Source: Xanthomonas sp. F10
GTDB lineage: Bacteria > Pseudomonadota > Gammaproteobacteria > Xanthomonadales > Xanthomonadaceae
NCBI RefSeq assembly: GCF_014206815.1
Contig: NZ_JACHNP010000001.1
Location: 1,888,456-1,952,455 of the forward strand
Length of the DNA: 64,000 nt
Reading direction: 5' to 3'
The stretch's first letter is position 1. Every line of letters begins with the position of its first letter. The notes below the pieces were generated by a model. The model did no database searches and was not told the origin of the DNA. It was given only the letters and a program-made list of their open reading frames with translations. Below are positions 611 through 35,023 of the stretch, piece after piece. The position numbers were made by a program, and so were the translations under genes.

Positions 611-3025
611 TCACGCCGGGATCAGCCAGCCGCCGAACAGCGGGCCGGCAGTGTCGCCGTGCTGCGGCTCGATGCGCACGGTCAGCGGCTGCGCATCGCG
701 GGTCAGCGCCGGCGGCAACGGGTAGTCGCGGTCGACGAAATCGATCACCTGGCCGCGCTCCACCGCCACCTCCACGGCCAGCTTGCCATTGACCAGGATG
801 TTGAAGCGACCCTTGTCGCTGCCCCAGAAGCGCAGGCGCAGCGCCAGCGGTTGCGCACTGCCGCGCATGCGGAACTCGACGAAGCCCTTGCCGCGCACGT
901 CGCGGCACTGCTGGCGACGGTAGGCGCCACCGAAGGAGGTGTCGCTGCGCAGCTGGTGCGCCTGCTCGGAGGCCTCGTCGCCGAACTGGATCATGTCCAC
1001 CGCGATCGCGCGCAGCTTGTCCTGCTCGGCCTGGCGGCGCGCCCGCCGCTGCGCCTCCTCCGCCCACTGGGCGGGGTCCATGCGCTTGAAATACAGCGCA
1101 CTGCGGCGCTCGTACTGCGCGTAGAACGGCACGAAGGTCAGGCCCGGCGGCTGCGTGCTGCTGGCCTGGAAATGGCCGGGCTGCGGCAGCTCGGCAAAGC
1201 CGCGCAGCGGATCGGCCGCGGCCACCAACGCCGGGTCCGGCGCATCGTAGGGGGTGCTCACCGGCCCCAGGTCGGCCGCCAGCGCCAGCGGCCCGCGCAT
1301 CACCACCACCGTGTCCGTATCGCCGGCGGCATGTTCCAGCCGCAGCGGCGTGGCCAGGTCCAGGTCGATCACGTCGCCGGCGCGCCAGTCACGCTCCAGC
1401 GTCAGATAGCCGTCGGCCAGCGCCGCGCGTGCGGGCTTGCCATTCACGCGCAAGGTGTAGCGGCCCTGGCACCAGGCCGGCACCCGCAACAGCAGGCGCC
1501 GCGGTGTGCGTGCACCAGCGCGCAGCACCTGCAGGCGCACCTTGCCGTTGTCGGGCACGCCGCTGTCCAGTTCCAGCGCCAGGTCGCGCTCGCTCCAGTC
1601 CAGCCACGAGGGGATGTAGAGATTCACGTACAGCGAGGTGTCGTCCTGCCAGTAGATGGCATCGCCGAACTGCGCATGCGCTTCCATGCCGCTGCCGACG
1701 CAGCACCAGAACGAGTCGAACTTGTCGGAGAAACCGCGCTCGCCGCCGCTGATCATCGGCGTCATGTAAGTGAACATGCCGGTGCCCGGATGCTGCGCGG
1801 CCATGGTGTGGTTGTGCAGCGTGCGCTCGTAGTAGTCGAAGTAACGCGCCTGCGGCGTCCACTGGTACAGATGCCGGGTCAGCTTGAGCATGTTGTAGCT
1901 GTTGCAATGCTCGCAGGTCTGCTCGGTCAGGAACGCGGCGATGGTATCGGGCTCCTGGAAGTACTCGCGGTCGGCATTGCCGCCGATCACGTAGCTGTAG
2001 TGCGTGGTGACCGTCTCCCAGAAGAAGCGGGCCGCCGCGGCCGCGTCGGCGTCGCCGGCGACCTCGAACTGGCGCGCCTCGCCGATGAACTTGGGCACCT
2101 GGGTATTGGCATGGATGTGCGGCAGTTCGTCGCGCCCGGCCGCGGCCGGGTCGATCACCTTTTCGTGGCGCAGGCGCTTGCCGATCGCGATCCAGCGCGC
2201 ATCGCCGGTGCGTGCGCCCAACTCGATATAGGATTCGTTGAGGCCGCCGAACTCGGTGTCCAGCAGGGTCTGCATCTGTGCGTGGTCGAGCGCATCGAAG
2301 ACGCCGGCGGTGTAGGCGGCCAGCGGCAGGAGCACCTCCAGCGCCTGCTTGCTGCCGCCCAGCGCATGCGCGTCGAGCAGGCCGGCGAACAGCTTGTGCT
2401 GGGTGTACAACGGCGACCAGCTGCCGTTGAGATTGAACTTGCTGCCCTTGATGATGCCGCGGCGCACGTCCTCGAACACCATCTTGCCGCTGTCGATGAC
2501 GCCTTGGTCGTTCTTGCGGGTGAGCCCGCCGACGTAACCGTCCGCGTCCTTGGCCTGCGCGCGCGCCAGCTCGGCGACGATGTAGTCGATGCGCTCGCGC
2601 AGCACCGGGTCGCGGGTCTGCGCGTGCATCTTGGCCAGTGCGCTGAGATAGTGGCCCAGGGTGTGGCCGGCGATGGTGTCGCCCTCCCAGCCACCGTACA
2701 CCGCGCCCTTCGGCGGCAGGCCGGCGTAGTGCAGGAAGTTGTGCAGCAGGCGGTCCGGCTCCAGTTCCAGCAGGTAGCGGCGGTTGGTCTGCAGCGACTC
2801 CAGGAACAGCGACGGTTTCAGCGTGACCTGCTGCAAGGGCAGCGCCTGCACGCGCCCGGGCGTGGACGCGGCGGCGTCCAGCGGAAAGCGCAGCATCCCG
2901 GCCGCCACCGCCAGTGCGCTCCATTGCAGGAAGCGGCGGCGCGATGGGTCCAGCGCGGCGCCGGCCGCATCGGCGGATGCGTGCACGCAGGCGGCGGCGT
3001 GCCGATGCGTCCCCTGCCCGCTCAT
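611..3025 (-). CDS. Exported GH127/GH146-type beta-L-arabinofuranosidase
   Basis: An 804-residue glycosidase of the DUF1680 superfamily. HypBA1-type enzymes release L-arabinose from beta-1,2-arabinobiose and related arabinofuranosides of plant hydroxyproline-rich glycoproteins. The zinc-thiolate catalytic site is visible: CEHC near position 1,910 and WCC near 1,697 supply the Glu-x-Cys and Cys-Cys ligands of HypBA1. A twin-arginine signal (SRRRFLQ, residues 28-34, followed by a hydrophobic stretch) indicates Tat export. The C-terminal 150 residues look like an added beta-sandwich. The frame stays open to 3,145, but the ATG at 3,025 has GGGAG 7 bases upstream; an ATG at 3,070 is an alternative. 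It is transcribed alone, behind a shared motif and a 16-base palindrome. GH127 versus GH146 cannot be settled by eye. Confidence 0.85.
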   Translation of the reverse strand: MSGQGTHRHAAACVHASADAAGAALDPSRRRFLQWSALAVAAGMLRFPLDAAASTPGRVQALPLQQVTLKPSLFLESLQTNRRYLLELEPDRLLHNFLHYAGLPPKGAVYGGWEGDTIAGHTLGHYLSALAKMHAQTRDPVLRERIDYIVAELARAQAKDADGYVGGLTRKNDQGVIDSGKMVFEDVRRGIIKGSKFNLNGSWSPLYTQHKLFAGLLDAHALGGSKQALEVLLPLAAYTAGVFDALDHAQMQTLLDTEFGGLNESYIELGARTGDARWIAIGKRLRHEKVIDPAAAGRDELPHIHANTQVPKFIGEARQFEVAGDADAAAAARFFWETVTTHYSYVIGGNADREYFQEPDTIAAFLTEQTCEHCNSYNMLKLTRHLYQWTPQARYFDYYERTLHNHTMAAQHPGTGMFTYMTPMISGGERGFSDKFDSFWCCVGSGMEAHAQFGDAIYWQDDTSLYVNLYIPSWLDWSERDLALELDSGVPDNGKVRLQVLRAGARTPRRLLLRVPAWCQGRYTLRVNGKPARAALADGYLTLERDWRAGDVIDLDLATPLRLEHAAGDTDTVVVMRGPLALAADLGPVSTPYDAPDPALVAAADPLRGFAELPQPGHFQASSTQPPGLTFVPFYAQYERRSALYFKRMDPAQWAEEAQRRARRQAEQDKLRAIAVDMIQFGDEASEQAHQLRSDTSFGGAYRRQQCRDVRGKGFVEFRMRGSAQPLALRLRFWGSDKGRFNILVNGKLAVEVAVERGQVIDFVDRDYPLPPALTRDAQPLTVRIEPQHGDTAGPLFGGWLIPA

Positions 3026-3147
3026 CGCCGGACTCCCGCGCGCGAGGTGGCATGCGGAAAAGAAACGCATCGAGGCATGGACTTCTCCTGTGTGGGGTGT
3101 CGGGGCGCCGACTCCGCGGGCAATGACCGGCGGATCCGGTGTCACTG

Positions 3148-3163
3148 TGTCACCCGGGTGACA
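3148..3163. promoter_or_regulatory. Perfect 16-base palindrome TGTCACCCGGGTGACA
   Basis: The two halves TGTCACCC and GGGTGACA are exact reverse complements. The site lies 123-138 bases before the chosen ATG of the GH127/146 gene and abuts the shared two-part motif. A related near-palindrome, GTCACACTGTGAC, stands at 409-421 upstream of the partial gene. It is a plausible dimeric repressor or activator site; the regulator is unknown. Confidence 0.5.
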
Positions 3164-3165
3164 GC

Positions 3166-3208
3166 GCGTCTTGTCCCCACTGATGCCTGCAGATGCGGAT
3201 TTCTGCCG
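3166..3208 (-). promoter_or_regulatory. Shared two-part motif, copy 2 (upstream of GH127/146)
   Basis: GCGTCTTG begins at 3166 and TGCGG at 3194, again 28 bases apart. The second half continues as ATTTCTGCCG, so its palindrome is degenerate. The site is about 140-180 bases before the ATG of the glycosidase. Confidence 0.55.
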
Positions 3209-3409
3209 AAACGCCGCATCGACCTACCGCAGGCGACCAAGCCCTGTCCGCTCACCGCAGACGAACGCGGCCGATACAACATTGGCCCGTCGGCTCATGC
3301 GCCGCCTGCACGACATGTCGCATCTGCATGCATCGGGAAAACTGCGGCAGTGTCGCAGCGCATGCACCGGCACCCGCCACGACACCGCCGGTCGGTCATT
3401 GCCGGTCGA

Positions 3410-5254
3410 TCAGTGTGGCTTCGCCGTGACCTCTGGCACCGCCTCGGTGAGGTCGGCGCCATAGTCGGGACTGGTTACCGTGTCCGCATCCACGTATCCG
3501 TAGAACACGCCCTTGCTGGCGGACGCACCCCGCTGCTCGACGTCGCCACGCAACTGCGCGGTGCCGGACAGCGTGAATCCACCGAATGCCCCTGCCGGCT
3601 TGAACACCGTATGCACCTGGGCGCGATCCTTGACCGTCACCCCATCCTGCAACAGGCTCAATCCGCCGACCACGGCGCTGTCCTGCACCTGCCCGCCCAG
3701 GATCGTCGCGTGATCCTCGATCCGCGCATCGCCGAGCACCTTGCCCCCGAGCACCCGCGCCTGCGGGCCGATATAGGCCGTTGGCGCGACATACGCGTTC
3801 TGCGCGACCCAGCCACCGCCGTTGGGGTGGCGACTGCCGACGCGCGTCGGCGTCGGCGCACCGGGCTGCTGACCCGACGGATAGACCTTCTCCAACGTGA
3901 CGCTCCACGGATAGCGGTAGACCGAGTAGTAGGACTGATCCCACTTGATCTTCTGCATCGTGCTCGGCGTGCCCATGACCACCAGATACAGGTCGCTGTC
4001 ACCGCTGCGGAGCTGGAACGACAGCGCGGCATCGGCGCCATGCTGCAACGCGCTGTAGCGCGGCTTGCCGTTGGCATCGATGGCGACCAGGCCCCAGCGC
4101 CAATCCGAGTCGGGTGAGCCGATCGTCTCGGGATCGTTCGCCAGACCCGGCAAGGTGTCGACCGCCGACCGCTGCTGTACGTTGCCATGGAACTTCACCA
4201 CCACCGCAGTCGCATTCTGGGCGGGAATCAGCCGGACCAGGTTGTAGCCCCAGCGCTGCGGCGCCCAGTCGAACGGCACTTGGTAGACGCCCGCCTGGCC
4301 CTGCACCGGATCCAGCTGGGTCAGGCGCAGGGCGCGATCCCGATTGGTCTCATCGGACGGGTTTTCCGGATCGAACGCGGTATTGCTGCCATATTCCCGG
4401 CGCATCACCGCGCCATGATCGCGAGCGTCCGGGTCGATGTAGTCCCAGTGCACGTTGTGCATGGCCCAGTCGCCGAACACGTCGTTGAGTTGCGACTGGC
4501 TCCAGCCCATGTTGTCGCGAATGATCGAGAACGGGTCGGCATCGGCCTGGCGGGAATCGCCGGGCTTGGGCGCCTTGGCCCACAGATCGTTGATGATCGC
4601 GTAGCCGAAGCGATCCTTGAGGTACTCCATGAACTGCCAGTTGCAGTAGCGGTCGCGGGTCGAGCCAAGATAGAGATGCGGGTAGTTCACCAACATCTCC
4701 GAGCACTGCACATCGTCGTGGAAATACTGATGGGCCATCCAGTTGGCATGCGATTCCCAGATCCAGCCGACATACGGCGAATCGCGCAAGCCGCCGGTAC
4801 TGCCCTGCAACCCATGGGTCAACTCATGCGCCAGGCCCCAGTGATATCCCAACTGGTCCGGATTGATCCACATTCCCATACCGCCACTGGCGGAGGTACC
4901 GCCGTTCAGGCCGAAGCTGTCGTCCAGGTAGACGCTGACCTTGTACTTCTTCGCCGTATTGCAGTAAGGCTCGGGAAAACCGACGCGCGCCATGTAGTCG
5001 TCCCAGATCAGCTCCAGCTCCTTGGCTGCCGAGGCGACGTCGTCCTGGGAAACGGCTTGCCCGTCCTGCCAGCGGAACGCGAAGTGTTCGGTTTCGTAGC
5101 GGACGGCCGGCATGTCGGTGTCGTCGGGATTGGCGATCCATTGACCGGCGGTGCAGACGGACGCGGCATGCGCATGCTGCGCAGCCAGGGCCAAAACGGC
5201 CGACAGGCACACTGCGGACACCCTACGCACGAATCGAGAAGCAGCGATTTTCAC
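3410..5254 (-). CDS. Svx/AvrXca-like secreted zinc metalloprotease homologue (DUF6055)
   Basis: A 614-residue exported protein resembling the Svx virulence protein of Pectobacterium and the AvrXca avirulence protein of Xanthomonas, which are type II-secreted. A Sec signal peptide ends near residue 30 (QHAHA). HELTH at 143-147 with a Glu at 167 (WESHA) is the zinc-ligand layout of gluzincin proteases. Residues about 480-590 contain repeated hexapeptide-like steps (AYVAPTAYIGPQARVLGG, then similar units) typical of a left-handed beta-helix. The start is GTG at 5,254 behind a strong AGGAGG. The gene stands alone between two arabinosidase units and lacks the shared two-part motif, so it may be controlled separately. 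A role in cutting plant cell-wall glycoprotein is inference from position; the substrate is unknown. Confidence 0.75.
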   Translation of the reverse strand: MKIAASRFVRRVSAVCLSAVLALAAQHAHAASVCTAGQWIANPDDTDMPAVRYETEHFAFRWQDGQAVSQDDVASAAKELELIWDDYMARVGFPEPYCNTAKKYKVSVYLDDSFGLNGGTSASGGMGMWINPDQLGYHWGLAHELTHGLQGSTGGLRDSPYVGWIWESHANWMAHQYFHDDVQCSEMLVNYPHLYLGSTRDRYCNWQFMEYLKDRFGYAIINDLWAKAPKPGDSRQADADPFSIIRDNMGWSQSQLNDVFGDWAMHNVHWDYIDPDARDHGAVMRREYGSNTAFDPENPSDETNRDRALRLTQLDPVQGQAGVYQVPFDWAPQRWGYNLVRLIPAQNATAVVVKFHGNVQQRSAVDTLPGLANDPETIGSPDSDWRWGLVAIDANGKPRYSALQHGADAALSFQLRSGDSDLYLVVMGTPSTMQKIKWDQSYYSVYRYPWSVTLEKVYPSGQQPGAPTPTRVGSRHPNGGGWVAQNAYVAPTAYIGPQARVLGGKVLGDARIEDHATILGGQVQDSAVVGGLSLLQDGVTVKDRAQVHTVFKPAGAFGGFTLSGTAQLRGDVEQRGASASKGVFYGYVDADTVTSPDYGADLTEAVPEVTAKPH

Positions 5255-5636
5255 GGCTCTACCCTCCTCTTGCCCGATGAGATTGGATGGATTGGACGAT
5301 CGACGCGATCCGCCGCAACAGCAGGCAGTGCTGGATGAATCCGCCGCCCCCGACGGCGTGCCGTTAAAAACGCGGCCGGCGCAACGCCGACAACAGACGG
5401 CGCTTCAGCCATTCGCACTTCGGCAACCCGTCGCCAGCCTAATGCAGTCAGGCGCAATGCACCTTACGGTTATCCCCAAGGAATCGAGCTAATTCCGCAC
5501 ACATTTCGAAAATCGAACTGGCGTCACGACAGGATCATGATGCGCCCGGCAGCGGCGGCCGACGCCGGCGGCAGGTCTCGCCACTGGAAGGCGCGAAGCT
5601 CGGCGACGTTTGCTCAGTCGGCATGCGCGCCTGGCC
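5255..5636. other. Intergenic region, nothing recognised
   Basis: A 382-base gap that should hold the promoter of the Svx-like gene and the end of the receptor-GH121-GH43 operon. It is somewhat richer in A+T near 5,460-5,530. No shared motif, tRNA, terminator hairpin with a T-run, or gene was found. Confidence 0.5.
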
Positions 5637-7232
5637 TCAAGGCGCGTCGCAGCGTTGCGCATCCGCGGTGGTGGCCTGCGGCAGGCGCTGCGCCTGCGGC
5701 GCCAGCATCTCCCACTCCTGCACCGCCAGCGCCGCGTAACGCTCGCCGCCGCCTGCGGCATCCAGCACCGCGCGCACGCAGCGCGTGGTCACCGGATCGA
5801 AGCGCAGCGTCTGCCAGCGACCGGCGACCGGCGCGCGCGTGCTCTGCGCCAGTGGCCACCAGCGGCCATCGCGGCGGTACTCCAGCCGCCAGCGCGCCGG
5901 CGGCGCCACGCCGCTGTCCGCGCCCGGCGGATGGTCGGCCCAGAACAGGATGCGGCTGCGCTGCAGCGTCACCGGTTGCGCCCAGCTGTACTGCAGCCAT
6001 TGCTGCGGCGGGTTGTGCGGTGTCCAGCTGCCCCATAGCTGCGGCGGCAAGGGATTGCGCTTGACCCACCCGTCGTTGAGCGCGGCGATCCAGTACTGGT
6101 GCGGGATGTCCGGGCCGTTGGACGCGCTGGCCTGCGCATAACGGGCGAGGTTACGCTGCGGTGGCAAAGGCGGCTGCGGTCGGCGCGTGGCCACCACCGG
6201 CAGGATCCGCGCCGGCCGCTGGGTCTCGTCCCACTGCAATCGGTCGATGGCCACGCTGCGGCGGAAATGCCCGCCGCCCTTGGCGTCGGCGGTGTGATAG
6301 ACCAGGTACCACTGGCCGTTGAATTCGACGATGCCGCAGTGCGAGGTGGTCGAAGAGACCGGCGGCAGGAGTACCCCGCGGTAGGTCCACGGCCCCAGCG
6401 GCGACGGCGCGCTGCCGTAGGCGATGCAGGCGTGGTACAGCGTCGGCGTGCAGTCCGACGCCGGCCCGGCACGATTGCCGGCATAGGCCAGGTAGTAGGT
6501 GCCGTTGCGCTTGAACAGCCACGGCGCCTCGAAGTAGCCGTCCAGCGTGGTCACCGCCACCGCCTGCCCTTTCGGCGTGACCATGTCGCGTTCCAGCTCG
6601 ATGCCGAACAGCTTGCCGAAGGTGCCCCAATACAGGTACACACGGCCGTCGTCGTCGACCAGCACGGTCGGGTCGATGTTCTGGATCGCGTTGGGCGCCG
6701 GCAGCGATTGCGACAGGATCGGCCCCTGCGGATGCGCGTCGCGCCACGGCCCCAATGGGCTGTCGGCCACCGCCACCCCGATCGCGAACGGATCGGCATT
6801 GCGCGAGTGCGCTTCCTGCACCGGCGCATACAGGTAGTAGCGCCGGTCCGGGCCCTGCACGATCTGCGCGCCGTAGGCATGACCGGGGGCGGCCCAGGCG
6901 AAGACCTGGTGCGGTCGCAGCAGTGCCGGATAGTAGGTCCAGCGGCCACTGCCGACGTCGTCGGTAACCAGCAGTTGCCAGCGGTCCATGACGAAGTCGT
7001 TGACCTCCGGCGGTGCTTCGTCGCGGCCGGCGATGATGTAGAGCTTGCCATCGGCGACCAGTGGTGCCGGGTCGGCTGCATAGTCGCGGCCGTCGGCCAG
7101 GATCGGGTTGCCCGGCGCCTGCACCGGCCGCGACCGCGGCGTTGTCGGCGCGGCGGCCGTGGCAACGCCGATGCAGGCGCCCCATGCCAAGAGCAGCGAC
7201 GCGAACACCCTGCGCATGGGAGGGCGATTCAT
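5637..7232 (-). CDS. Exported GH43 family glycosidase, probable alpha-L-arabinofuranosidase
   Basis: A 531-residue secreted enzyme with a five-bladed propeller signature. The three GH43 acidic residues are visible: Asp54 in YAADP (base), Asp187 in NIDPT (pKa modulator) and Glu235 in YFEAP (acid). The C-terminal 150 residues (from about 375) look like a discoidin/F5-8-type carbohydrate-binding domain. A Sec signal peptide ends near residue 27. The ATG at 7,232 overlaps the stop of the GH121-like gene (ATGA), so the two are translationally coupled. In extensin degradation the GH43 partner removes the terminal alpha-1,3-arabinose that blocks the beta-linked chain. That role here is inferred from the neighbours; GH43 also includes xylosidases. 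Confidence 0.82.
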   Translation of the reverse strand: MNRPPMRRVFASLLLAWGACIGVATAAAPTTPRSRPVQAPGNPILADGRDYAADPAPLVADGKLYIIAGRDEAPPEVNDFVMDRWQLLVTDDVGSGRWTYYPALLRPHQVFAWAAPGHAYGAQIVQGPDRRYYLYAPVQEAHSRNADPFAIGVAVADSPLGPWRDAHPQGPILSQSLPAPNAIQNIDPTVLVDDDGRVYLYWGTFGKLFGIELERDMVTPKGQAVAVTTLDGYFEAPWLFKRNGTYYLAYAGNRAGPASDCTPTLYHACIAYGSAPSPLGPWTYRGVLLPPVSSTTSHCGIVEFNGQWYLVYHTADAKGGGHFRRSVAIDRLQWDETQRPARILPVVATRRPQPPLPPQRNLARYAQASASNGPDIPHQYWIAALNDGWVKRNPLPPQLWGSWTPHNPPQQWLQYSWAQPVTLQRSRILFWADHPPGADSGVAPPARWRLEYRRDGRWWPLAQSTRAPVAGRWQTLRFDPVTTRCVRAVLDAAGGGERYAALAVQEWEMLAPQAQRLPQATTADAQRCDAP

Positions 7233-10200
7233 GGCGCCGCCTCCGCCTCGATCACCAGTTCCAGCCGCACCGGCAACTCGCCGCTGCCCTCGCGCCCCTG
7301 CGCCTGCCCGACCACGCTCAGGCGCCCTGGCTTCGCATAGGCGGCCGACGCCAGCGGCGACCAACGCACCGGCACGCGCTCGCGCGAACCGTCGTTGTAC
7401 TGCACGGAGACCAGCTCCGGCAGCGCCGGCACCTGCCCTGCAGGCACGTGCAACGGCGGCGGCGCTTGCACGGTGGTGAGCTGGCCCGGTGCGGTCGCGC
7501 GGACCCAGACGCTGGCAGTCACCGGCACGCCGCCGTCGGCCAGGCCCTGCACCTGCACGCGGCCCTCGCCGGCCAGCGCCGCCACATCGACTTGCGACCA
7601 GCGCACGCCCAGCCGGCCCCAGCTGCCGTCGGCGAAGTAGCCGGCGATGCGTGCCGGCAACGTCGGCGCCTGCCCAGGCGCGATACGCACGTCCACCGCT
7701 TCGGTCGCCACCGCACGCTCGGCGAACACCTGCCATTCGTCCATGCCGACCGCGTAATGGCCTTCGCCCTGCACCGCAGTCTGCAGCACCGCGCGCAAGG
7801 CCGTGGTGACCACCGGCGCGAATGCCACGCGACTCGGCGCGCCATTACCCTGCACCGGATAACCGCCGCGCACGGCGATGTCGCGCCACTGCGTACCATC
7901 GAGGTATTGCAGCGTCCACCCGCGCGGCAACGCCACCCCGCCCTGCGGCTGGTCGTCCCAGAAGTACAGCGCCGCCGCGCTCAGCCGCTGCGCTTGCGGC
8001 CACTGATACTGCACCCACACCGAGGCGGGCTGCGCGCGCCCCCAACTGCCCCAGCGGCGGTCGGCGGCGGGCTCCTGGTCCGGCGCCGGCAGCAGTCCAT
8101 CGTTGAGCGCCTGCAGGCGGTGATGGCCGGCGGTGAATTGCGCGCTCGGCGTGGCCTGGCCTTGCACCTGCAGGGCCTGCCCGGCCGGGGTCGCTGCCGC
8201 GATCACCGCCACCTCGGCGTGCCCCTGCAACGCGCCATCGTCGGCCTGCAACTGCAGGGTGTAGGCGCCGGGCGCAGTGAAGCGCACCTCGGTCGTGGCC
8301 GCCTGCGGCTGCTCGAACAGCGCCGCACCACCGGGGGGTGCCTGCAGCATGCGCCAGTGCAGGGAAAGCGTGCCGTTCGGCAGTGCGTCGTCGCCGACCC
8401 GCCCGGCCAGGCGCACCACGCCGCCGGCACTGCTGCCGTCTTCCTGCCAGGCCTCGACCTTCGGCGCCTGGTTGCCCTGCGCCGCCGGCGCCGCGGCACC
8501 GCTGGCATAGGCCTGGATCTCCTTGATCCCGGTGCGCAGCGCGCCTGCATGGGTCACTTGCACGCGCCAGCGCTGCGCGCGTAGCGGCGGGAAACGGACG
8601 CGGTTGCGGTTGCCCTGTGCGATCGGCGTATCGCGCACCTGGCCCGGCACGGTCTTCCACACGTCCTCATCAAGATACTGCAGCACGTACAGCCACGGCG
8701 GCGCATAGCCGGCACGCGTACCCGACGGAAAACCGTGCTGCTCGCCTGCGGGCGAGGAGCTGCGATAGAAGTACACGCGCAGGTCATCCAGGGTCTGCGG
8801 CCGGCCCAGATCCAGTTCCAGCCAGTCGCTGCTGCTGCTCGAACCGGCGGTGCCCCAGAACGGTTCGTTGGCGGTGCTGCCGTCGACCGCCGCAGTGGCC
8901 GGAAATCCGTCGGTCGCGTAGCTGGCGCTGACCGCCGCGCCCTGCGCCAGGTTGCGCGCGCCCGGCGGCAGCGCGGTATCGAGCCCGGCATCGGCCAACA
9001 CCGCACCGATCCGCGCCGCGCCGGGAAACCGCACCTGCTGCGGCGCCTGCAGCGCCAGCCGGTGCGCGGCCAGCACCTGCATCTGCGCGGCACCGGCATT
9101 GACTGCATCCGGCAAGGCCTGCACGCGGCCGCTGGCAGGGTCGTACAGCAGGTGTGCCAGGCGGTCGACGGTGAAGGCCAGACGCCCGTCCAGGTACAGC
9201 GAATAGCCTTTCGGCGCGGCGCCGCCATAGCGGCGACCGTCGCGGTCCCAGACGATGCTCAGGTCGCGGTCGCGGTAGCGCAGCCGGTCGGCGGCGAAAT
9301 GGTCCCAGCCGATGTCGATCGGATACAGCTCGATCAGGGCATCGCTGCGCGGACGCAGGCCCATCGCATCCTCGATCACGGTGAAGTTGGTGGCGCCGAG
9401 CTGGGTGTGGTGGATCCACGAACGGTAGCCGATGCGGCCGCCATCGGCGGCGCTGCCCTGCGCCCAGAACTCGTTCTGGTCCGGATAGCGGTTGTCGCCG
9501 TCGATGTAGTGCGCCCACGCGTTCCAGTACAGCAGTGTGCGGTAGCTGGACGCGTCCAGGTACGGGCTGGGGTAATCGCGCAACACGCTGCCGAGCAGGC
9601 GGAACGCCACGGTGGAATTGATCACCGAGAAATTGTTGCTGCCGCCGGCGCCGCGCGCCTGTGCATCGGCCTGGTTGGCGGTGTAGAACGGGAACAGCGG
9701 GAACTGCCGGGCGTCGGCGAACAGGCGCAGCGCGCGCACGTACTTGGGGTCGTCGTCGGCATCGCCGTGCTTGGGCATCAGGCCGACACTGAAGGGGTAG
9801 TAGTTGTTGGTCTCCTTCCAATCCACCGGCAGCTGCGGCCCGTCGGCCTGGCGCTGCTTGAGCAGGTCGCCGTGCAGGCCCATGCCGTCGGCCTTTGCGC
9901 TGTGGTCCTGCCACAGCACATCGAGCACGGCGCGGCGGATCTTCGCCGCCAGCGTCTGCATGCGCGTGGCGGTGGCGGTATCGCCGGCCACCTGCGCGGC
10001 CTGCGCGGCGGCCAGCGCATTGGCGTACACATACGCGCTCTCGCTGCGGTCCATGCGCGGGGCGCCATGGCGCTTGGCCCAGTCGAAGGACACCGCGTCG
10101 GCGTCGTTGCCGGTCATCGCCGCCCAGTCGTATTCGATCAGGCCATTGCCGTTGCGGTCGTAGGCGCGCAGCAGCGCTTCCACGTCGGCGCTGGCGTAGC

Positions 10201-27994: not shown

Positions 27995-29583
27995 GCGCTG
28001 CGCTCCACGTCGGCGGTGCTCCAGCAGCCGTCGATCAGCCGCTGCACGCCGCCGGGATTGCGATCGCGCAGCAACGGCGGCAGCAGCGCGTCGGGCATGC
28101 CGTCGTAGCTGTGCAGCGCGGCGAAGCGGCGGATCGCCGCGGGCATGCCGACGGCGGTGAAGCCCGGATGGCCGGTGCTCGGATACGGGCCGCCATGGTT
28201 CATGGCAGGGCTCACCGCCACGCCGGTCGGCATCTTGTTGCAGATCAGGCGGCCGACCCGCGGGCGCAACGCCGCGGCCAGCGCGGCGAAGTCCATGTCG
28301 TCGCTGCCGTCGGCGGCGCGATAGAGCGTGCCGGTGAGATTGCCCTCGAAGCTGCGCGCCAGGGCGGTCAACTGCCCCATGCCACCGCCGCGCACGATCA
28401 GGCTGACCGGGCCGAACGCTTCGGTCTGCAGCGCCTCGGGCTGCTGCAGGAACGCCTCGGCCGACACCTCCAGCAGGGTCGGCGCATGCCGATAGCCGGG
28501 GCCGGCATCGGCCTCGCCGCCGGCCAGCACCGTGGCACCGGCGTCGCGCAGCGTGCCCAGGCTGCGCTGCAGATGCTCCAGCACGCCGCGCGAGAACAGC
28601 AGCGCCGGCGCCGCCGCAGCAAAATGCGCGGCGGCCGCGGCGACGAAGGCATCGCCGGCCGCGCCCTCCGGCACCACCGCGATGCCCGGATTGGTGCAGA
28701 ACTGGCCGCTGCCCATGGTGCAGGAGGCGAAGAACTCCTGCGCCAGCGCCGCGCCGCGCTCGGCCAGCGCGCCCGGCAGCAGGAACACCGGATTGACGCT
28801 GGACAGCTCGACATAGGCCGGCACCCCGGCACGGTCGGCGGCGGCCTTCAGCGCCAGCCCGCCGGCACGGCTGCCGGTGAAGCCGATCGCGCCCAGCCGC
28901 GGATCGCCGGCCAGTTCCAGGCCCAGCGTGCTGTCGAAGTGGTACAGCAACTGCACCGTCGCCGCCGGCAGGTCATGGGCCAGCAGCGCCTGGTGCGCGA
29001 GTTGCGCCAGACGCTGGCTGGTGGCCGGATGCGAGGGATGCGCCTTGGCGATGACCGGATTGCGCGCGACGATGGCCGAGGCGAAATCGCTGCCGGCCAC
29101 CGCGTTGAACGCGAACGGGAAATTGTTCGGCCCGAACACCAGCACCGGCTTGTGCAACGGCCCCAGTTGCGCGCGCAGGCCGGCCGCGGTGTCGATCACC
29201 GGCTGCGTCCAGCTGTGGCTGCGTGCCGCCTGCGCGGCCTGGCGCAACTGCCCGCTGGCGCGCGGCAGTTCCACCTTGGCCAGGCGCGGCTCCACCGGCA
29301 GGCCGGTCTCGGCATGCGCCAGCGCCACCAGCTGCTCGACGTCGGCGTCGATCGCATCCGCGTACGCGTCCAGGAACGCAGCGATGCGTTCCGGCGCGGC
29401 CGCGGCCAGCGCATCGGCGCTCAGCGCCGCCGCGCTCAGCGCCGCTTCCAGGTCGGCGGCGCCGCTGACCGGGAACGACGGACCGAACTCGCTCCCGTCG
29501 CGCGGGTCCTCGGCGCGGAAGCTGCCGCGCTCCTCCAGCGAGGCCTGCCAGTGGCCGGCCAGCAACAGCGGTTGCATGCTCAT
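27991..29583 (-). CDS. 2,5-dioxovalerate (2-oxoglutarate semialdehyde) dehydrogenase
   Basis: A 530-residue NAD(P)-dependent aldehyde dehydrogenase. Catalytic Cys296 (GQFCTNPG) and Glu259 (AYVELSSVNP) are present, with the FGPNNFPFAFN motif typical of the semialdehyde dehydrogenases that convert 2-oxoglutarate semialdehyde to 2-oxoglutarate. This is the last step of trans-4-hydroxyproline breakdown. Its ATG follows the deaminase stop by one base, and its own stop overlaps the M24 gene. A second ATG lies two codons downstream. Confidence 0.9.
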   Translation of the reverse strand: MSMQPLLLAGHWQASLEERGSFRAEDPRDGSEFGPSFPVSGAADLEAALSAAALSADALAAAAPERIAAFLDAYADAIDADVEQLVALAHAETGLPVEPRLAKVELPRASGQLRQAAQAARSHSWTQPVIDTAAGLRAQLGPLHKPVLVFGPNNFPFAFNAVAGSDFASAIVARNPVIAKAHPSHPATSQRLAQLAHQALLAHDLPAATVQLLYHFDSTLGLELAGDPRLGAIGFTGSRAGGLALKAAADRAGVPAYVELSSVNPVFLLPGALAERGAALAQEFFASCTMGSGQFCTNPGIAVVPEGAAGDAFVAAAAAHFAAAAPALLFSRGVLEHLQRSLGTLRDAGATVLAGGEADAGPGYRHAPTLLEVSAEAFLQQPEALQTEAFGPVSLIVRGGGMGQLTALARSFEGNLTGTLYRAADGSDDMDFAALAAALRPRVGRLICNKMPTGVAVSPAMNHGGPYPSTGHPGFTAVGMPAAIRRFAALHSYDGMPDALLPPLLRDRNPGGVQRLIDGCWSTADVERSA

Positions 29584-29584
29584 C

Positions 29585-30490
29585 TCAGTGCCCGGGATGG
29601 GTGGCGATGGCGTGGTCGATGACCTTCAATGCAGCTTCGCGCTCGGCGCCTTCCAGCAACAGCCGCGGCGCGCGCACGCGCTCGCTGCCCAGGCCGACCT
29701 TCGCCTGCACCAGCTTGATCAACTGCACGAACTTGGGCACGGTGTCCAGGCGCAGCAGCGGCAGGAACCAGTCGTACAGCGCCTTGGCCGCCGGGTAGCC
29801 GCCGTCGCGGGCCAACTCGAACAGCTTCACCGACTCCTTCGGGTAGGCGTTGACCAGGCCGGCGATCCAGCCCTTGGCGCCCATGCTCAGGCCTTCGACG
29901 ATCGCATCGTCCATGCCCACCAGCAGCACCAGGCGGTCGCCGAGCAGTTCGCCCAGCGCAGCGAAGCGGCGCACGTCGCCAGAGGACTCCTTCACCGCCT
30001 GCAGGTTCGGGAACTCGGCCGCCAGCTCGGCGATCTGCGCCGCGCTGAAATCGGTCTTGTAGGCGATCGGGTTGTTGTACAGGATCACCGGCAGGTCGGT
30101 GGCGCCGATCACCGCGCGCACGTGCGCGCCCATCTCGCGCCAGTCGGTGGAGTACACGTACGGCGGCAGCACCATCGCGCCGCCGCAGCCGACCTGCTTG
30201 GCCGCCTGCACCAGCCGCACCGCTTCGTCGGTGGACAGCGCGGCGATGCCCGGCACCACCGGGATGCGGCCGTCGACCGCCTGCACCAGGGTCTTGAGGA
30301 TCGCCAGCTTGTCGTCGAAGCTCAGCGTGGCCGCCTCGCCCAGCGAACCCAGCGGCACGATCGCGGTGCAGCCGGCGTCGACCATGAGCTGCGCATGCTT
30401 GGCCAGGAACGCGTGGTCGATGCTGCCGTCGGCGTTGAACGGAGTGGTGATGGCCGGCAGCACGCCGTACCAGAAGGAAGCCTTGCTCAT
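29585..30490 (-). CDS. DapA-family 1-pyrroline-4-hydroxy-2-carboxylate deaminase
   Basis: A 301-residue member of the dihydrodipicolinate synthase family. Schiff-base Lys167 (QAVKESSGD) and Tyr138 (LYNNP) are in place. In hydroxyproline operons this family deaminates and dehydrates pyrroline-4-hydroxy-2-carboxylate to 2-oxoglutarate semialdehyde, which the next enzyme oxidises. The ATG at 30,490 overlaps the stop of the dehydrogenase alpha-like subunit (ATGA). The assignment over true DapA rests on the operon; a lysine-pathway role is unlikely here. Confidence 0.88.
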   Translation of the reverse strand: MSKASFWYGVLPAITTPFNADGSIDHAFLAKHAQLMVDAGCTAIVPLGSLGEAATLSFDDKLAILKTLVQAVDGRIPVVPGIAALSTDEAVRLVQAAKQVGCGGAMVLPPYVYSTDWREMGAHVRAVIGATDLPVILYNNPIAYKTDFSAAQIAELAAEFPNLQAVKESSGDVRRFAALGELLGDRLVLLVGMDDAIVEGLSMGAKGWIAGLVNAYPKESVKLFELARDGGYPAAKALYDWFLPLLRLDTVPKFVQLIKLVQAKVGLGSERVRAPRLLLEGAEREAALKVIDHAIATHPGH

Positions 30491-31857
30491 GGAAGTACAC
30501 CTTGTGGAGAGTTGCGAAGGGATGCCGCGCGCGAAGGCGCGGCGCAAGCGGCGTCCGGACCCGGGTCCGGACAGGGATGGGCCAGCGCGTCCAGACGCGC
30601 CGGGAACAGCGGCGGCCGGCGGCCGTCGTCGGAGAAATCGGCGGGACGCGCGGCCAGGCCCAGTTCGGTGAGCGCGCTGCCGCAGATGCGGCCCTGGCAC
30701 GCCCCCATGCCGCAGCGCGAGGCCAGCTTGGCGTCGCGCAGGTCGGCATGGCCTTGCAGCGCCGCCAGCGGCACGTCCTCGCAGCGGCACACCAGCGTGT
30801 CCGGCGCGGCCAGCGCGTGGATGCGGGGGTCCAGCGCGAACTGCCGCTGCAACAGCGCGGCGAAGGCGCGCGCGCGGCGTCGCTGCGGCTGCAGCGCCTG
30901 CGCATCTGCGTCCTGTCCGGCAGCCAGATGGCCGGCGATGGCGCCTTCCACCCGCGCGCAATCGCGCCCGCCGATGCCCAGCGCCTCGCCGGCGGCATAC
31001 ACACCGTCGACGCTGGTGCGCAGCTGCGCGTCCACCGCCACGCACGGATGCGCGCCGCTGCGGCCCAGGCGGCAGCCCAGCAATTGCGCCAGTTCCACGT
31101 TCGGCACCAGGCCGTAGCCCACGGACAATTGATCGCAGGCGAGACGGCGGCGGCCGCGCGGGCCGTCGAGTTCCACCTCCTGCACGCGGCCCTCGCCGTA
31201 CGCGGCCAGCACCACGCTGCCGGCGTGGTAGCCGACCCCGGCCAGTTGCGTGCGCAGCGCCAGCGCCTGCAGCGCCTTGTCCGGCCAGCGCAGCGGCAAC
31301 TGCGCGGCGAACGCGGCCAGCGCGCGCCACGGCGCCTGTTCGACGATGCCCAGCACCTGCGCGCCATGGCGCTGCAGCGTCGCCGCCGAGGCCAGCAGCA
31401 GCGGTCCGCTGCCGGCGACCAGCACGCGCCGCCCGGCCAGCGGCCAGCCCTGTTTGGCCAGCGCCTGCGCGCCGCCGGCGCCGGTCACCCCGGGCAGGGT
31501 CCAGCCCGGGAACGGCAACAGCAATTCGCGCGCGCCGGTGGCCAGCACCAGCGCGTCATAGCCCAGCCAGCGCGGGCCATCGGGACCGTCGGTGAGCAAC
31601 CGCCGGTCCTGCGCCAGCAGCACCTGGGTCTGCGGCAGGAAGGTCACCGCACTGGCCGCCAGTTGCGCCAGCGCGCGCGCGGCCAGGCGCGGCGGCGGCT
31701 GCGCCACGTCATGGCGCCAGATCTGCCCGCCAGCACGCGCCTGCAGATCGACCAGGCCGACGCGGCGGCCATGCCCGGCCGCCGCCAGCGCCGCCGCCAG
31801 CCCGGCCGGGCCGGCGCCGATCACCAGGACCTCGTAGTGGGCGGACGGCTCAGCCAT
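30487..31857 (-). CDS. D-hydroxyproline dehydrogenase, FAD/NAD(P)-type subunit with C-terminal Fe-S motif
   Basis: A 456-residue flavoprotein. The FAD-binding GAGPAG (residues 14-19) and a second nucleotide fold (VAGSGP) are present. The C-terminal part carries CRCEDV ... CGMGACQGRICG, a BFD-type [2Fe-2S] site. This matches the LhpE subunit of the three-part D-Hyp dehydrogenases (also similar to opine oxidase/HcnB subunits). The ATG at 31,857 overlaps the stop of the ferredoxin subunit by 8 bases; earlier in-frame codons to 31,878 are unsupported. Confidence 0.87.
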   Translation of the reverse strand: MAEPSAHYEVLVIGAGPAGLAAALAAAGHGRRVGLVDLQARAGGQIWRHDVAQPPPRLAARALAQLAASAVTFLPQTQVLLAQDRRLLTDGPDGPRWLGYDALVLATGARELLLPFPGWTLPGVTGAGGAQALAKQGWPLAGRRVLVAGSGPLLLASAATLQRHGAQVLGIVEQAPWRALAAFAAQLPLRWPDKALQALALRTQLAGVGYHAGSVVLAAYGEGRVQEVELDGPRGRRRLACDQLSVGYGLVPNVELAQLLGCRLGRSGAHPCVAVDAQLRTSVDGVYAAGEALGIGGRDCARVEGAIAGHLAAGQDADAQALQPQRRRARAFAALLQRQFALDPRIHALAAPDTLVCRCEDVPLAALQGHADLRDAKLASRCGMGACQGRICGSALTELGLAARPADFSDDGRRPPLFPARLDALAHPCPDPGPDAACAAPSRAASLRNSPQGVLP

Positions 31858-32098
31858 CGGTCCACACCTGCATGCCATCGCGCGCCGGGGTGATGCAGGC
31901 GCGCAACTGGCCGACGCGGTCGATGCGCACCCGGCACTCGGCGCACACGCCCATGCCGCACAGCGGCGCGCGCGGCTGGCCGCTGCGCGAGCGGCGGAAA
32001 TGCGGGGCCACCTGCGCCACTGCCGCGGCCACGCTGCTGCCGTCGAGCACTTCGACGTCGCGGCCGTCGACCTGCAGGCGCAGCATCCGCGCGCTCAT
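31850..32098 (-). CDS. D-hydroxyproline dehydrogenase, [2Fe-2S] subunit
   Basis: An 82-residue ferredoxin-like protein with the four cysteines of a plant-type [2Fe-2S] cluster: Cys47, Cys52, Cys55 (CGMGVCAEC) and Cys68 (RACIT). It corresponds to the small gamma subunit (LhpF type) that passes electrons between the two flavin subunits. The ATG at 32,098 overlaps the upstream stop (ATGA). The gene is easily missed because a longer out-of-context frame covers it. Confidence 0.88.
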   Translation of the reverse strand: MSARMLRLQVDGRDVEVLDGSSVAAAVAQVAPHFRRSRSGQPRAPLCGMGVCAECRVRIDRVGQLRACITPARDGMQVWTDG

Positions 32099-33195
32099 GC
32101 CAGCGCCCGCGCCGGCGCGTACGGCGCCGGGTCGATGGCCGCGGGCCGCTGCAGCAGTTGGTCCAGCAGCAGGCGCGCACTCCCCAGCGCGGTGGTCACG
32201 CCCAGGCCCTCGTGGCCGGCCGCGACCCACACGTCGCGCCGCTCCGGCACCGCGCCCAGATATGGGCGCCCGTCCGGCGTGGCCGGACGCAAGCCGGTCC
32301 ACACCCGGATCGCCTGCAGTTGCCGCAGGCCCGGCAGGAACGCGAAGGCGCGCTCCAGCATCCGCTGCAGCATCGGCATCGACACCGTGCGGTCGGTGGC
32401 ATCGAATTCGCGCGAGGAGCCGATCAGGATCTGCCCGGTCGGCCGCGGCTGCACGTTGAACGCCACGCTGCTGCCGTCGCTGCCGTGCGCGCTGTCGGCA
32501 TAGCCCAGTTCCAGCAATTGATGGGCGACGAAGCCCGGATAACGGTCGGTGATCACCAACTGGCCCTTGCGCGCGCGCATCGGCAGTTCCGGCAGCAATT
32601 CCGGCAGGGCGCAGCCGGTGGCGACCAGCACCGGGCCATGCAGCGCGCTGCCGTCGTCCAGGCGCACGCCGGCATCGGCCAGCGCGGTGGCGCGGCGGCC
32701 GGCGTACAGCTGCGCGCCGGCGGCGCAGGCGCGCTCGGCCAGGTAGCGCGCCATCCGCGGCGGATACACCACCGCCTCGGCAGCCACGCGCATGCCGCCG
32801 GCCAGGCCGGGGACCAGCGCCGGCTCCAGTTGATACAGCCGCTGCGCATCGAGCGCTTCGGCGTGCACGCCGGCCGCGGCCAGGCGCTGGATCTTGGCCG
32901 GAATCCCGTCCAGTTCGCGCGCCTCGCGCGCCACCCACAGCGTGCCGCAGCGGCTGAACTCGGCCTCCGGCAGCGGCGCGAATTCTTCCCACAGGCGCAG
33001 CGAATAAGCCGACAGCGCCAGTTCCGCCGGATCGTCGTCCATCGCCACCAGGTGCCCCATCGCCGCGGCCGTGCTGCCGCCGCCGATACTGCCCGACTCG
33101 ACGATCGCCACGCGCAGGCCGGCGGCCGCCGCCGCATCGGCGCAGGCCGCACCGACGATTCCGGCGCCGACGACGATCAGGTCGAAACCGCTCAT
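32095..33195 (-). CDS. D-hydroxyproline dehydrogenase, DAO-type FAD subunit
   Basis: A 366-residue protein of the D-amino acid oxidase superfamily with GAGIVG at residues 10-15 and the C-terminal FAD motif (GRPYLGAVP ... HEGLGVTTA). It corresponds to the catalytic beta subunit (LhpB type) that oxidises cis-4-hydroxy-D-proline to pyrroline-4-hydroxy-2-carboxylate. The ATG at 33,195 overlaps the epimerase stop, and its own stop overlaps the ferredoxin gene. Confidence 0.88.
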
Positions 33196-34133
33196 GCGGC
33201 GCCGATGCCCCAGGCGAACGGATCCTGCGGATCGATCAGCAGATGCGCGCGCGCGGTGATGAAGGCCTGCCCGGTGATGCGCGGCATCACGCCGCGGGTG
33301 CCGGCCGCATAGCGGCCTTCGAACATGCTGCCGAGGATGCCCTGCTGGCGCCACACCTGGCCCGGCGCCAGCTTGCCGTCGGCGGCCAGGCACGCCAGCT
33401 TGGCGCTGGTGCCGGTGCCGCAGGGCGAACGGTCGTAGGCCAGGCCCGGGCACAGCACGAAGTTGCGTGCATCGGCGCTGGCGTCCGGCGCCGGCCCGTT
33501 GATCTCGATGTGGTCGATCTCGCCGCCGTCGGCGCCGCGGATGCCCGCCGCCTCCAGCGCCAGCCGCACCGCCTCGGTGTAGGCGGTCAGCGCGCGCTGG
33601 TGGCGCAGCTCTAGCGCGCACGGCGTCTGTTCGGTGATGAAGAACCAGTTGCCGCCCCAGGCCACGTCGCCGCGCACGCGCCCGTACTCGGGCACCTGCA
33701 CTTCGACGCCGGTGGCATGGCGGTAGCTCTCGACGTTGTCGACCGAGACGCGGCCGTCGGCATGCAGCTCCACGCCGACCGTGCCCACCGGCGTCTCGAT
33801 GCGGTGCGTGCCCGCGCTCAGCCGGCCCAGTTCGGCCAGCGTGCGCACCAGGCCGATGGTGCCGTGGCCGCACATGCCCAGGTAGCCGACGTTGTTGAAG
33901 AAGATCACTGCCGCACAGGCATCGGCGGCCACCGGCGGCAGCAGCAGCGCGCCGACCATGGTGTCCGAGCCGCGCGGCTCGCAGGCGATGGCGCTGCGCC
34001 AGCGGTCGAAGCGCGTGCGGAACAGTTCGCGGCGCTCGGCCAGGGAACCGGTTCCCAGATCGGGGAAGCCGGAGACGACGACACGGGTCGGTTCGCCGGC
34101 GCTGTGCGAGTCGATGACATCGAGTGTATGCAT
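33192..34133 (-). CDS. 4-hydroxyproline 2-epimerase
   Basis: A 313-residue member of the proline racemase family that converts trans-4-hydroxy-L-proline to cis-4-hydroxy-D-proline. Both catalytic cysteines are present, Cys88 (MCGHGTIG) and Cys238 ([10 protein letters not shown]), which separates it from the dehydratase branch, where one position is Thr or Ser. Proline racemase itself is the main alternative, but the downstream dehydrogenase, deaminase and semialdehyde dehydrogenase make the hydroxyproline role very likely. It is the first gene of the operon, divergent from the AraC-type regulator. Confidence 0.93.
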
Positions 34134-34315
34134 GGCGCCATGCTCACATTCGACACCGCCGCCGGCTAGCAGCGTTTGCCTGTCGCAAATGCGGAAATTC
34201 GCACAACCCGGCGACGCCCGGCGGCGCCCGGCGGCGCCGACTTAGGCTAGCATCGGCATTCAGGGGACGCGCGGCGGCGCGCCCGCACCGCCGCCCACTC
34301 CCGCAGGTGAACGCC
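34134..34315. promoter_or_regulatory. Divergent control region of the hydroxyproline operon
   Basis: A 182-base gap between the epimerase and the AraC-type regulator, which start in opposite directions. It holds the inverted repeat TGCG-GAAATT-CGCA (34190-34203), close to the palindrome in the arabinosidase promoters, although the partner half GCGTCTTG is not at the 28-base offset. This is a plausible binding site for the divergent regulator. Confidence 0.5.
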
Positions 34316-35023
34316 ATGGACACTCTCATTTCGGCACTGGAACTGCAGACGCTGTTCGACGCCTTGCCGGACGTGGTGTTCTTCGTGAAGGACCGCGACG
34401 GCCGCTACACCCACGTCAACCTGACCCTGGTGCGGCGACTGGGCAAGAAGTACCGCGCCGACCTGATCGGCAAGTCCGCCGCGGACGTGTTCCCGCTGCC
34501 GCTGGGCGGCAGCTACCTGATGCAGGACCGCCGCGTGCTGTGCGGCGAGGTGATCGAGAACCAGCTGGAAGTGCACCTGTTCCCGAACCGCACCCCGGGC
34601 TGGTGCCTGACCTTCAAGCGCCCGCTGTGCGAGGGCGAGGACGTGATCGGCGTGGTCGGCATCTCCCGCGACCTGGGCCAGCCGGACAGCCGCCACTCCG
34701 CCTACGAGCGCATCAGCCGCGCCATGGAGCACATGCAGGCGCATTACGGCGACAACCTGCGCGTGCAGACCCTGGCCGACCTGGCCGAGTTGTCGGTGGC
34801 GCAACTGGAACGGCACTTCCGCCGCGTGTTCCAGCTGACCCCGCAGCAGTTGCTGACCAAGATGCGCATCGAAGCGGCAATGCGCCTGCTGCACGGCGAC
34901 GACAGCATCGCCAGCATCGGCCAACTGTGCGGCTTCGCCGACCAGAGCGCCTTCGCCCGCCAGTTCAAGGCCACCGTCGGCATGACCCCGCGCGACTACC
35001 GGTCGATGAAGGGCAAGCTGTGA
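34316..35023 (+). CDS. PAS-AraC transcriptional regulator, likely controls hydroxyproline operon
   Basis: A 235-residue regulator with an N-terminal PAS domain (about residues 10-115; VVFFVKDRDGRYTHVN) and a C-terminal AraC-type double helix-turn-helix (about 130-232; ending FARQFKATVGMTPRDYRSMK). The ATG at 34,316 has AGGTGA just upstream; the frame runs further back but lacks a start signal. Divergent AraC regulators of this kind (LhpR) activate hydroxyproline genes in Pseudomonas. It probably senses hydroxyproline or an intermediate through the PAS domain; the ligand is inferred. Confidence 0.85.
   Translation: MDTLISALELQTLFDALPDVVFFVKDRDGRYTHVNLTLVRRLGKKYRADLIGKSAADVFPLPLGGSYLMQDRRVLCGEVIENQLEVHLFPNRTPGWCLTFKRPLCEGEDVIGVVGISRDLGQPDSRHSAYERISRAMEHMQAHYGDNLRVQTLADLAELSVAQLERHFRRVFQLTPQQLLTKMRIEAAMRLLHGDDSIASIGQLCGFADQSAFARQFKATVGMTPRDYRSMKGKL

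Follow-up and report, generated by a model that had tools for sequence, protein, structure and literature searches.

We analysed a 64,000-nucleotide stretch of the Xanthomonas sp. F10 genome (NCBI RefSeq assembly GCF_014206815.1, contig NZ_JACHNP010000001.1, positions 1,888,456 to 1,952,455; hereafter the window), in which the genes between positions 611 and 35023 probably form one functional unit that uses plant hydroxyproline-rich glycoproteins (HRGPs), i.e., extensins, solanaceous lectins and similar proteins, as carbon and nitrogen source. A sequence-only reading of this region had assigned the glycoside hydrolase (GH) families GH127/146, GH121-like and GH43 and a TonB receptor to positions 611-17099, and prolyl and DUF885 peptidases, a permease, a prolidase and the genes leading from trans-4-hydroxyproline to 2-oxoglutarate to positions 18554-34133, and our gene calls, which were based on an open reading frame (ORF) list, codon composition, and Pfam and NCBIfam profile searches, agreed with both assignments (Table 1). 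As that reading had also stated, only a flagellar rod-like ORF (17250-17558) and repeats (17666-18536) lie between the two halves. It overlooked the Svx/AvrXca identity of the gene at 3410-5254, the family-less protein that we call U788, and a palindromic operator. The gene content, the linkage across genera and chromosomal sites, and the shared conserved operator sequence were computed in this study, and established in relatives are the three arabinosidase activities (PMC6085000), the cleavage of extensin by a Svx protein (PMC13164431), and the 4-hydroxyproline (4-Hyp) epimerase family (PMC4113996). The earlier proposal that the adjacency of the two halves marks a dedicated HRGP locus is supported by their conserved linkage, by the shared operator, and by a second chromosomal site.

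A comparison of gene order across relatives had been set beforehand as the test of this proposal, and it showed that the two halves are not usually far apart. The comparison covered a genus set of 20 genomes, the window's own included, and a family set of 198 genomes. Epimerases were counted at an identity of at least 61%, and lower epimerase-family matches (8 of 48 genomes), weak HypBA2 matches that covered a terminal piece only, and a weak U788 match in genome G202 were left out. HypBA2 and the epimerase were present on a common contig and strand in all 20 genus genomes, in one of these (G019) with HypBA2 as broken pieces only. Full-length HypBA2 was found in 19 genomes of the family set (9 of the genus and 10 others), U788 in 23, and the epimerase in 40, and these sets were nested, since all HypBA2 genomes contained U788 and all U788 genomes contained the epimerase. 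HypBA2 and the epimerase shared a contig in 7 of the 10 genomes outside the genus and were split by contig ends in the other three (G048, G187, and G203), and the halves were thus together in 27 of the 30 genomes with HypBA2, spanning 24.2-38.1 kb from HypBA2 to the epimerase (median 27.1 kb). U788 and the epimerase were located on one contig within ~40 kb in 20 of 23 genomes, the contigs of G048 and G203 leaving this undecidable. The association with the epimerase gave Fisher p values of 9e-16 for HypBA2 and 1.3e-19 for U788, and at the genus level it amounted to 7/13 epimerase-bearing genera versus 0/41 others (p 1e-5), in each case with kinship not removed.

Such linkage would also arise if two independent loci had become chance neighbours beside ftsY in an ancestor and had been kept there by inheritance, without a joint function. 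In the window, as in genomes of groups g2, g17 (the main Xanthomonas species) and g43 and in one of g28, the block indeed adjoins ftsY. In several genera the Hyp half adjoins ftsY-mutY, and it is frequently found without the arabinosidase half; moreover, U788 and the epimerase are apart in Lysobacter G030. However, the block occupies a different chromosomal site in Pseudoxanthomonas, where in P. helianthi (G186) and P. wuyuanensis (G171) ftsY is on a different contig and the locus lies well inside its own contig with the halves joined; P. wuyuanensis carries U788, the TonB receptor and HypBA1 without HypBA2 and HypAA. The halves are also joined in Xanthomonas sp. GPE 39 (G012), which together with X. 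albilineans belongs to the genus group of the window, and in which ftsY is ~130 kb from the block. Since, in addition, U788 occurs in other gene orders with GH127-type and with Hyp or prolyl-peptidase genes in Rhodanobacteraceae, Sphingomonas and Acidobacteriota, and genes of both halves are preceded by the same operator, as described below, we consider chance neighbourhood very improbable.

An alignment of 17 intergenic regions between the epimerase and regulator genes revealed a near-palindromic block, TGCgnATTTCCGCATT, ~54 bp before the epimerase, with a poor site in G046. A position weight matrix (PWM) was built from the epimerase promoters alone and applied with a threshold score of 13.5 after removal of duplicates and cut ends (9 rows dropped). 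With this matrix, the block was located in most Xanthomonadaceae loci at 75-85 bp upstream of U788. The threshold was reached upstream of U788 in 29 of 39 cases, upstream of the TonB-dependent receptor (TBDR) in 13 of 28, two of these, including the window, exactly at threshold (11/29 before score rounding), and upstream of HypBA1 in 4 of 27. For 14 other locus or neighbour genes (DAO, 2Fe-2S, FAD/NAD, DHDPS, aldehyde dehydrogenase, M24, first DUF885, S9, rod-like ORF, HypBA2, HypAA, Svx, ftsY, and mutY), it was reached in none of the 307 upstream regions, whereas 3.2% of random windows reached the threshold, a background that is an upper bound because these windows were drawn from the same loci. 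Three tests of the operator were independent, namely this PWM table, the held-out epimerase promoters, which all scored at least 15.8 (7/7), and a shuffle test. In the latter, 34 of 38 U788 promoters of the Xanthomonadaceae carried the operator versus 2 of 760 shuffles, and none of 500 shuffles of the window's U788 promoter reached its score; this count by clade used 60 of the 61 U788 loci described below, leaving out L111, whose contig begins at the gene. Across 23 U788 promoters, the mean majority share was 0.84 for the block compared to 0.60 for its surroundings. With a slightly widened exact pattern, 20 locus-bearing genomes contained 52 sites, of which 36 were inside the locus, a count that is partly circular because the pattern was widened after the U788 sites were known, and 16 genomes lacking the epimerase contained 11. 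Because the site sits between the epimerase and a PAS-AraC regulator, which is divergent from the epimerase in relatives too, we propose from this arrangement that the PAS-AraC protein binds the operator.

U788 had no match in Pfam or NCBIfam at E 0.001, where only a sub-threshold TAT_signal and chance-level weak rows appeared, and no credible match among PDB sequences (one row, E 0.3), CAZy not having been searched. Its fold matches tie across many (alpha/alpha)6 families. In an alignment of 34 U788 sequences, E342, D344, D348, E453, D455, and E646 were invariant, which makes them candidate active-site residues. Scanning two U788 peptide patterns through a collection of 84,980 species yielded 61 loci, in Xanthomonas, Pseudoxanthomonas, Lysobacter, [Pseudomonas] boreopolis, Dyella, Luteibacter, Rhodanobacter, Shewanella, Sphingomonas and Acidobacteriota. 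At least one gene of the Hyp-pathway, permease or prolyl-peptidase type was present within the fetched flanks of 49 of these loci, and the remaining 12 (L087, L092, L103, L105, L107, L109, L111, L115, L124, L126, L133, and L134), several of them on short or cut contigs, had no such genes in their flanks. In Dyella, Luteibacter and Rhodanobacter, which we take to be Rhodanobacteraceae, 11 of 12 loci had at least three Hyp-pathway genes adjoining U788, the twelfth being a 5-kb contig, and 10 of the 12 contained a GH127-like gene. The Sphingomonas locus L125 showed a different order, with a Pro_racemase gene encoding both Cys motifs, DHDPS, aldehyde dehydrogenase, permease, M24 and Ldh_2 genes, and a 57% match to HypBA1, and in the Acidobacteriota locus L129, DPP-IV, FAD/NAD subunit, DUF885, U788, and GH127 genes were found together. 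A Pro_racemase match over the cut-off was detected in 13 of 13 U788 genomes tested, mostly those with the Hyp genes out of view. We tentatively suggest, with slightly more doubt than conviction, that U788 is the founding member of a new family of six-hairpin glycoside hydrolases, acting on an inner sugar of HRGPs, for which Hyp-linked arabinose or galactose and Ser-linked galactose would be candidates, that the locus is the type of an HRGP regulon in which sugar removal is the means and backbone Hyp the food, and that the family marks users of plant-wall proteins in at least two phyla. As a separate observation, the Hyp genes at positions 14420-20709 of L125 are independently arranged and diverged, and are accompanied by Ldh_2 and an adjoining GntR/FCD regulator gene; the Ldh_2 superfamily also serves trans-3-hydroxyproline routes (PMC4113996).

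Several results weigh against the view that the locus is a single functional unit. The genomes are not independent, because much of the linkage was inherited from a common ancestor, and among the 40 epimerase genomes, 17 lack U788 and 21 lack HypBA2. In the Lysobacter genome mentioned above (G030, locus L087), U788 lies deep in a 2-Mb contig and the epimerase is on a different one. The operator sites of the window's TBDR and HypBA1 genes are weak (PWM scores 13.5 and 11.0). The operator was not detected before S9 (0/30), HypAA (0/22), HypBA2 (0/8) or Svx (0/2), and was nearly absent before the permease (2/32) and DUF885 genes (first 0/34, second 1/24), so that these genes would be read from neighbouring promoters or be otherwise controlled. 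Outside the Xanthomonadaceae, just 3 of 12 Rhodanobacteraceae U788 promoters (shuffles 2/240) and none of 10 more distant ones (2/200) carried the operator. The exact site was missing from the locus in 3 of 20 locus-bearing genomes (G020, G030, and G186), and five sites with at most one mismatch were situated outside the window in or near genes without an evident link. The plant-inducible promoter (PIP) box TTCGB-N15-TTCGB, searched in this strict form only, occurred 0 times in the window, with 1.09 expected by chance, unlike the situation in X. euvesicatoria. As to the racemase matches, 33 of 101 genomes of one acidobacterial class exceeded the cut-off, 2 of the 101 being U788 genomes, and a racemase gene was absent from the fetched flanks of the Acidobacteriota U788 loci.

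Table 1. Predicted genes and operator sites of the locus, with positions in the window.
Feature	Position	Strand	Basis and remarks
HypBA1-like beta-L-arabinofuranosidase	611-3145	-	PF07944 (GH127 catalytic Pfam domain), 416.8 bits; GH146 by closest solved chain
Svx/AvrXca-family metallopeptidase, predicted extensin endopeptidase	3410-5254	-	NF040510, 1089.6 bits (cut-off 625); HELTH at residue 143
HypAA-like GH43 alpha-L-arabinofuranosidase	5637-7232	-	PF04616, 117.9 bits
HypBA2-like GH121 beta-L-arabinobiosidase, longest ORF	7229-11788	-	NF041578, 1128.6 bits; 6M5A, E 2.1e-214
TonB-dependent outer-membrane receptor (TBDR)	11572-14586	-	PF00593 and PF07715
Weak operator-like site before TBDR	14677-14692	+	3 mismatches; PWM score 13.5, exactly threshold
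U788, six-hairpin glycosidase-like, hub of the locus	14733-17099	-	788 aa; predicted Tat signal; no Pfam/NCBIfam family
Operator site before U788	17178-17193	-	78 bp upstream of start codon; 1 mismatch; PWM score 19.8
Flagellar rod/hook-like ORF	17250-17558	-	102 aa; PF00460
DPP-IV/S9 prolyl peptidase	18554-20866	-	PF00930 and PF00326; GASAGG motif; Sec-like signal by eye
APC-family amino-acid permease	21012-22583	-	PF13520, 156.5 bits
DUF885 protein (first), predicted exported	23033-24874	-	PF05960, 534.9 bits; HESSPGH motif
DUF885 protein (second), lipoprotein-like N-terminus (LLAAC)	24871-26739	-	PF05960, 577.5 bits; HEGVPGH motif
M24 prolidase (Xaa-Pro dipeptidase-like)	26786-27994	-	PF00557 and PF01321
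Aldehyde dehydrogenase, predicted 2-oxoglutarate semialdehyde dehydrogenase	27991-29583	-	PF00171; function by pathway position
DHDPS-type deaminase (predicted)	29585-30490	-	PF00701, 198.3 bits; function by pathway position
FAD/NAD subunit, predicted D-hydroxyproline dehydrogenase	30487-31878	-	PF07992
2Fe-2S subunit, predicted D-hydroxyproline dehydrogenase	31850-32098	-	PF13510
DAO subunit, predicted D-hydroxyproline dehydrogenase	32095-33195	-	PF01266, 224.2 bits
4-hydroxyproline 2-epimerase	33192-34133	-	NF010577, 445.6 bits (cut-off 442); 4JUU, 553.7 bits
Operator TGCGAATTTCCGCATT	34188-34203	-	54 bp upstream of epimerase, between epimerase and divergent regulator
PAS and AraC-type regulator, divergent from epimerase	34124-35023	+	PF08448 and PF12833; true start probably near 34307

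In the hydroxyproline half, the genes for the epimerase, the DAO-type dehydrogenase, the DHDPS-type deaminase and the aldehyde dehydrogenase are contiguous and complete the pathway from trans-4-hydroxyproline to 2-oxoglutarate. The assignment of the epimerase was based on a score above the NF010577 cut-off, although NF052296 remained below its own (415.1 versus 450), and on the motifs MCGHG and CGTGT, of which we take the Cys residues to be catalytic. Its nearest solved chain is that of X. campestris 4JUU. The substrates of the dehydrogenase, deaminase and aldehyde dehydrogenase are predicted from family and context, and 4HypE, DAAO, DHDPS, and KGSADH are the families described for the bacterial trans-4-hydroxyproline pathway (PMC4113996).

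In the sugar half, the HypBA1-like protein is nearer to the solved chain 5OPJ (434.7 bits), presumably BT0349 of GH146, than to 3WKW (60.2 bits), presumably GH127, and its X. euvesicatoria homologue has been termed GH146 (PMC10850190). Its N-terminus carries a Tat-like SRRRFLQ, which is why HypBA1 may take the Tat route like U788. The HypBA2-like protein matched NF041578 over residues 98-1500 without reaching the equivalog cut-off of 3200, and we therefore call it a homologue and not an equivalog of the Bifidobacterium enzyme; over residues 121-933 its nearest solved chain was 6M5A, in line with homology to a characterised beta-L-arabinobiosidase, and the true start of its ORF is probably below 11600. 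Activity on Hyp-linked arabinosides has been shown for the X. euvesicatoria homologues of the arabinosidases (PMC6085000). A broken or interrupted HypBA2 was seen in G019, in X. albilineans (G001), and in X. phaseoli (L100), where much of the remaining locus is kept, and intact copies in most relatives.

The protein encoded at 3410-5254 combines an NF040510 score over the cut-off with an HExxH motif and was accordingly assigned to the Svx/AvrXca family. Svx was found in 8 of the 20 genus genomes, in all eight at most 12 kb from HypBA2. Pectobacterium Svx degrades carrot extensin, which it recognises by the arabinan side chains (PMC13164431), and Svx may therefore act before side-chain removal. 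A comparison of the gap between HypBA1 and HypAA in G012, G005, G015, G133, and G019 showed either Svx or a second S9 peptidase (~46% identical to the first S9), and in G133 and G081 a distant Svx-like piece accompanied the second S9 in the gap. The endopeptidases appear to have replaced one another.

Two other features of the window deserve mention. The rod-like ORF adjoins U788 in many Xanthomonas as well, at 39-96% identity, without an evident link to the locus, and the repeats that separate the two halves are direct repeats of ~134 bp in six copies, with G+C-rich palindromes, similar repeats being present before the permease gene at 22636-22904.

The arabinosidase half might serve arabinose use or a virulence-linked, HrpX-controlled loosening of the host wall, with the Hyp half only clearing hydroxyproline that the host sets free. 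The HypBA2-HypAA operon of X. euvesicatoria carries a PIP box, is induced by HrpX and is up in planta (PMC6085000), and the blocks of P. helianthi and [Pseudomonas] boreopolis contain a second GH127 gene and a major facilitator superfamily (MFS) sugar transporter gene between U788 and S9, as for arabinobiose uptake (L036, positions 197-4655, plus an aldose epimerase, and L042, positions 5353-8737, respectively). The window, however, has neither the PIP box in the form searched nor an MFS/GH127 pair between the U788 and S9 genes, and X. euvesicatoria cannot use L-arabinose and its triple mutant is still pathogenic (PMC6085000), which makes this explanation quite unlikely. It is also unlikely, if to a lesser degree, that the target is an arabinogalactan protein or another arabinosylated glycoprotein and not extensin. 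Arabinogalactan protein and arabinan are substrates of one GH146 member (PMC10850190), and several genomes carry U788 and GH127-type genes without HypBA2, but X. euvesicatoria HypBA2 is strict for Ara3-Hyp (PMC6085000) and Pectobacterium Svx targets extensin (PMC13164431), an argument limited to lineages with HypBA2 or Svx.

If the locus works as one HRGP utilisation unit, a secreted Svx endopeptidase would cut arabinosylated extensin, and HypAA (GH43), HypBA2 (GH121), and HypBA1 (GH146) would strip the sugars, with U788 adding a further step. The TonB receptor would import glycopeptides or peptides, which may be trimmed by the exported DPP-IV and DUF885 proteins, and the APC permease would move Hyp or Hyp-dipeptides inward, the latter to be split by the prolidase, after which the epimerase, D-Hyp dehydrogenase, deaminase, and semialdehyde dehydrogenase would convert trans-4-hydroxyproline to 2-oxoglutarate. 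The binding site of the PAS-AraC regulator would be TGCgnATTTCCGCATT, located upstream of the epimerase and U788 and, in certain species, of the receptor and HypBA1 as well. We infer the order of steps, the localisations, the roles of U788 and the DUF885 proteins, and Hyp as the main gain. Arabinose removal would in this scheme serve to free the peptide, and the fact that genes of both halves carry the same operator suggests that the bacteria seek the hydroxyproline of the protein rather than its sugar.

Polysaccharide utilisation loci unite a TonB receptor, secreted hydrolases, an inner transporter and a regulator in one locus. The component kinds are the same here, but the proposed useful part is the backbone amino acid and not the glycan. 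The nearest precedent is the X. euvesicatoria cluster of XeHypBA1, XeHypBA2, and XeHypAA (XCV2724, XCV2729, and XCV2728), in which the same three arabinosidase families are clustered and the HypBA2 stop overlaps the HypAA start as in the window, and for which Nakamura and co-workers described a pseudogene of a prolyl oligopeptidase next to XeHypAA and speculated about HRGP degradation (PMC6085000). The available part of that account mentions no Hyp catabolic half, neighbouring Svx, U788 or shared operator (PMC6085000), and the window differs from the cluster in that the PIP-box form searched for is lacking and that Svx occupies the position between HypBA1 and HypAA at which several relatives carry a second S9 peptidase. 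HypBA1, HypBA2, and HypAA of Bifidobacterium longum likewise remove Hyp-linked arabino-oligosaccharides sequentially, but there an ABC (ATP-binding cassette) transporter is the partner and the products are imported as sugar (PMC7263609), whereas the partners in the window are peptidases, Hyp catabolism, a TonB receptor, and a PAS-AraC regulator. The catabolic genes belong to the same families as those of trans-4-hydroxyproline operons (PMC4113996), of which the X. campestris 4HypE has been crystallised (4JUU), and of the HypR regulon (PMC5343134), but the regulator adjoining the hyp genes in the window neighbourhood consists of PAS and AraC domains and is not a GntR protein like HypR, and genes for glycosidases, peptidases, and a TonB receptor accompany the operon. 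The Svx protein scores far above the cut-off of the family that includes the Pectobacterium peptidases, of which the genes are not reported beside arabinosidase genes in the available parts of the respective papers (PMC9266454, PMC10815107, and PMC13164431), whereas here the gene lies between HypBA1 and HypAA. The next nearest precedent concerns Latescibacteria, for which extensin use has been predicted in silico from GH127 and arabinose uptake, Hyp catabolism not being mentioned in the part of the paper available (PMC4454575). No publication joining the arabinosidase half with the Hyp catabolic half was found among titles and abstract beginnings in open-licence PMC. The parts are known singly, and here they would be united in a TonB-type glycoprotein utilisation locus that also catabolises the amino acid of the backbone.

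Nakamura and co-workers asked why X. euvesicatoria has arabinose-stripping enzymes when it does not use L-arabinose and their deletion leaves pathogenicity intact (PMC6085000). A dedicated HRGP regulon would answer this question, since the reason for keeping the enzymes would then be nutritional and the prize would be hydroxyproline. It would also give Svx/AvrXca proteins a metabolic setting, provide a predicted operator with its regulator, and put a name to a glycosidase-like family that has no Pfam or NCBIfam entry.

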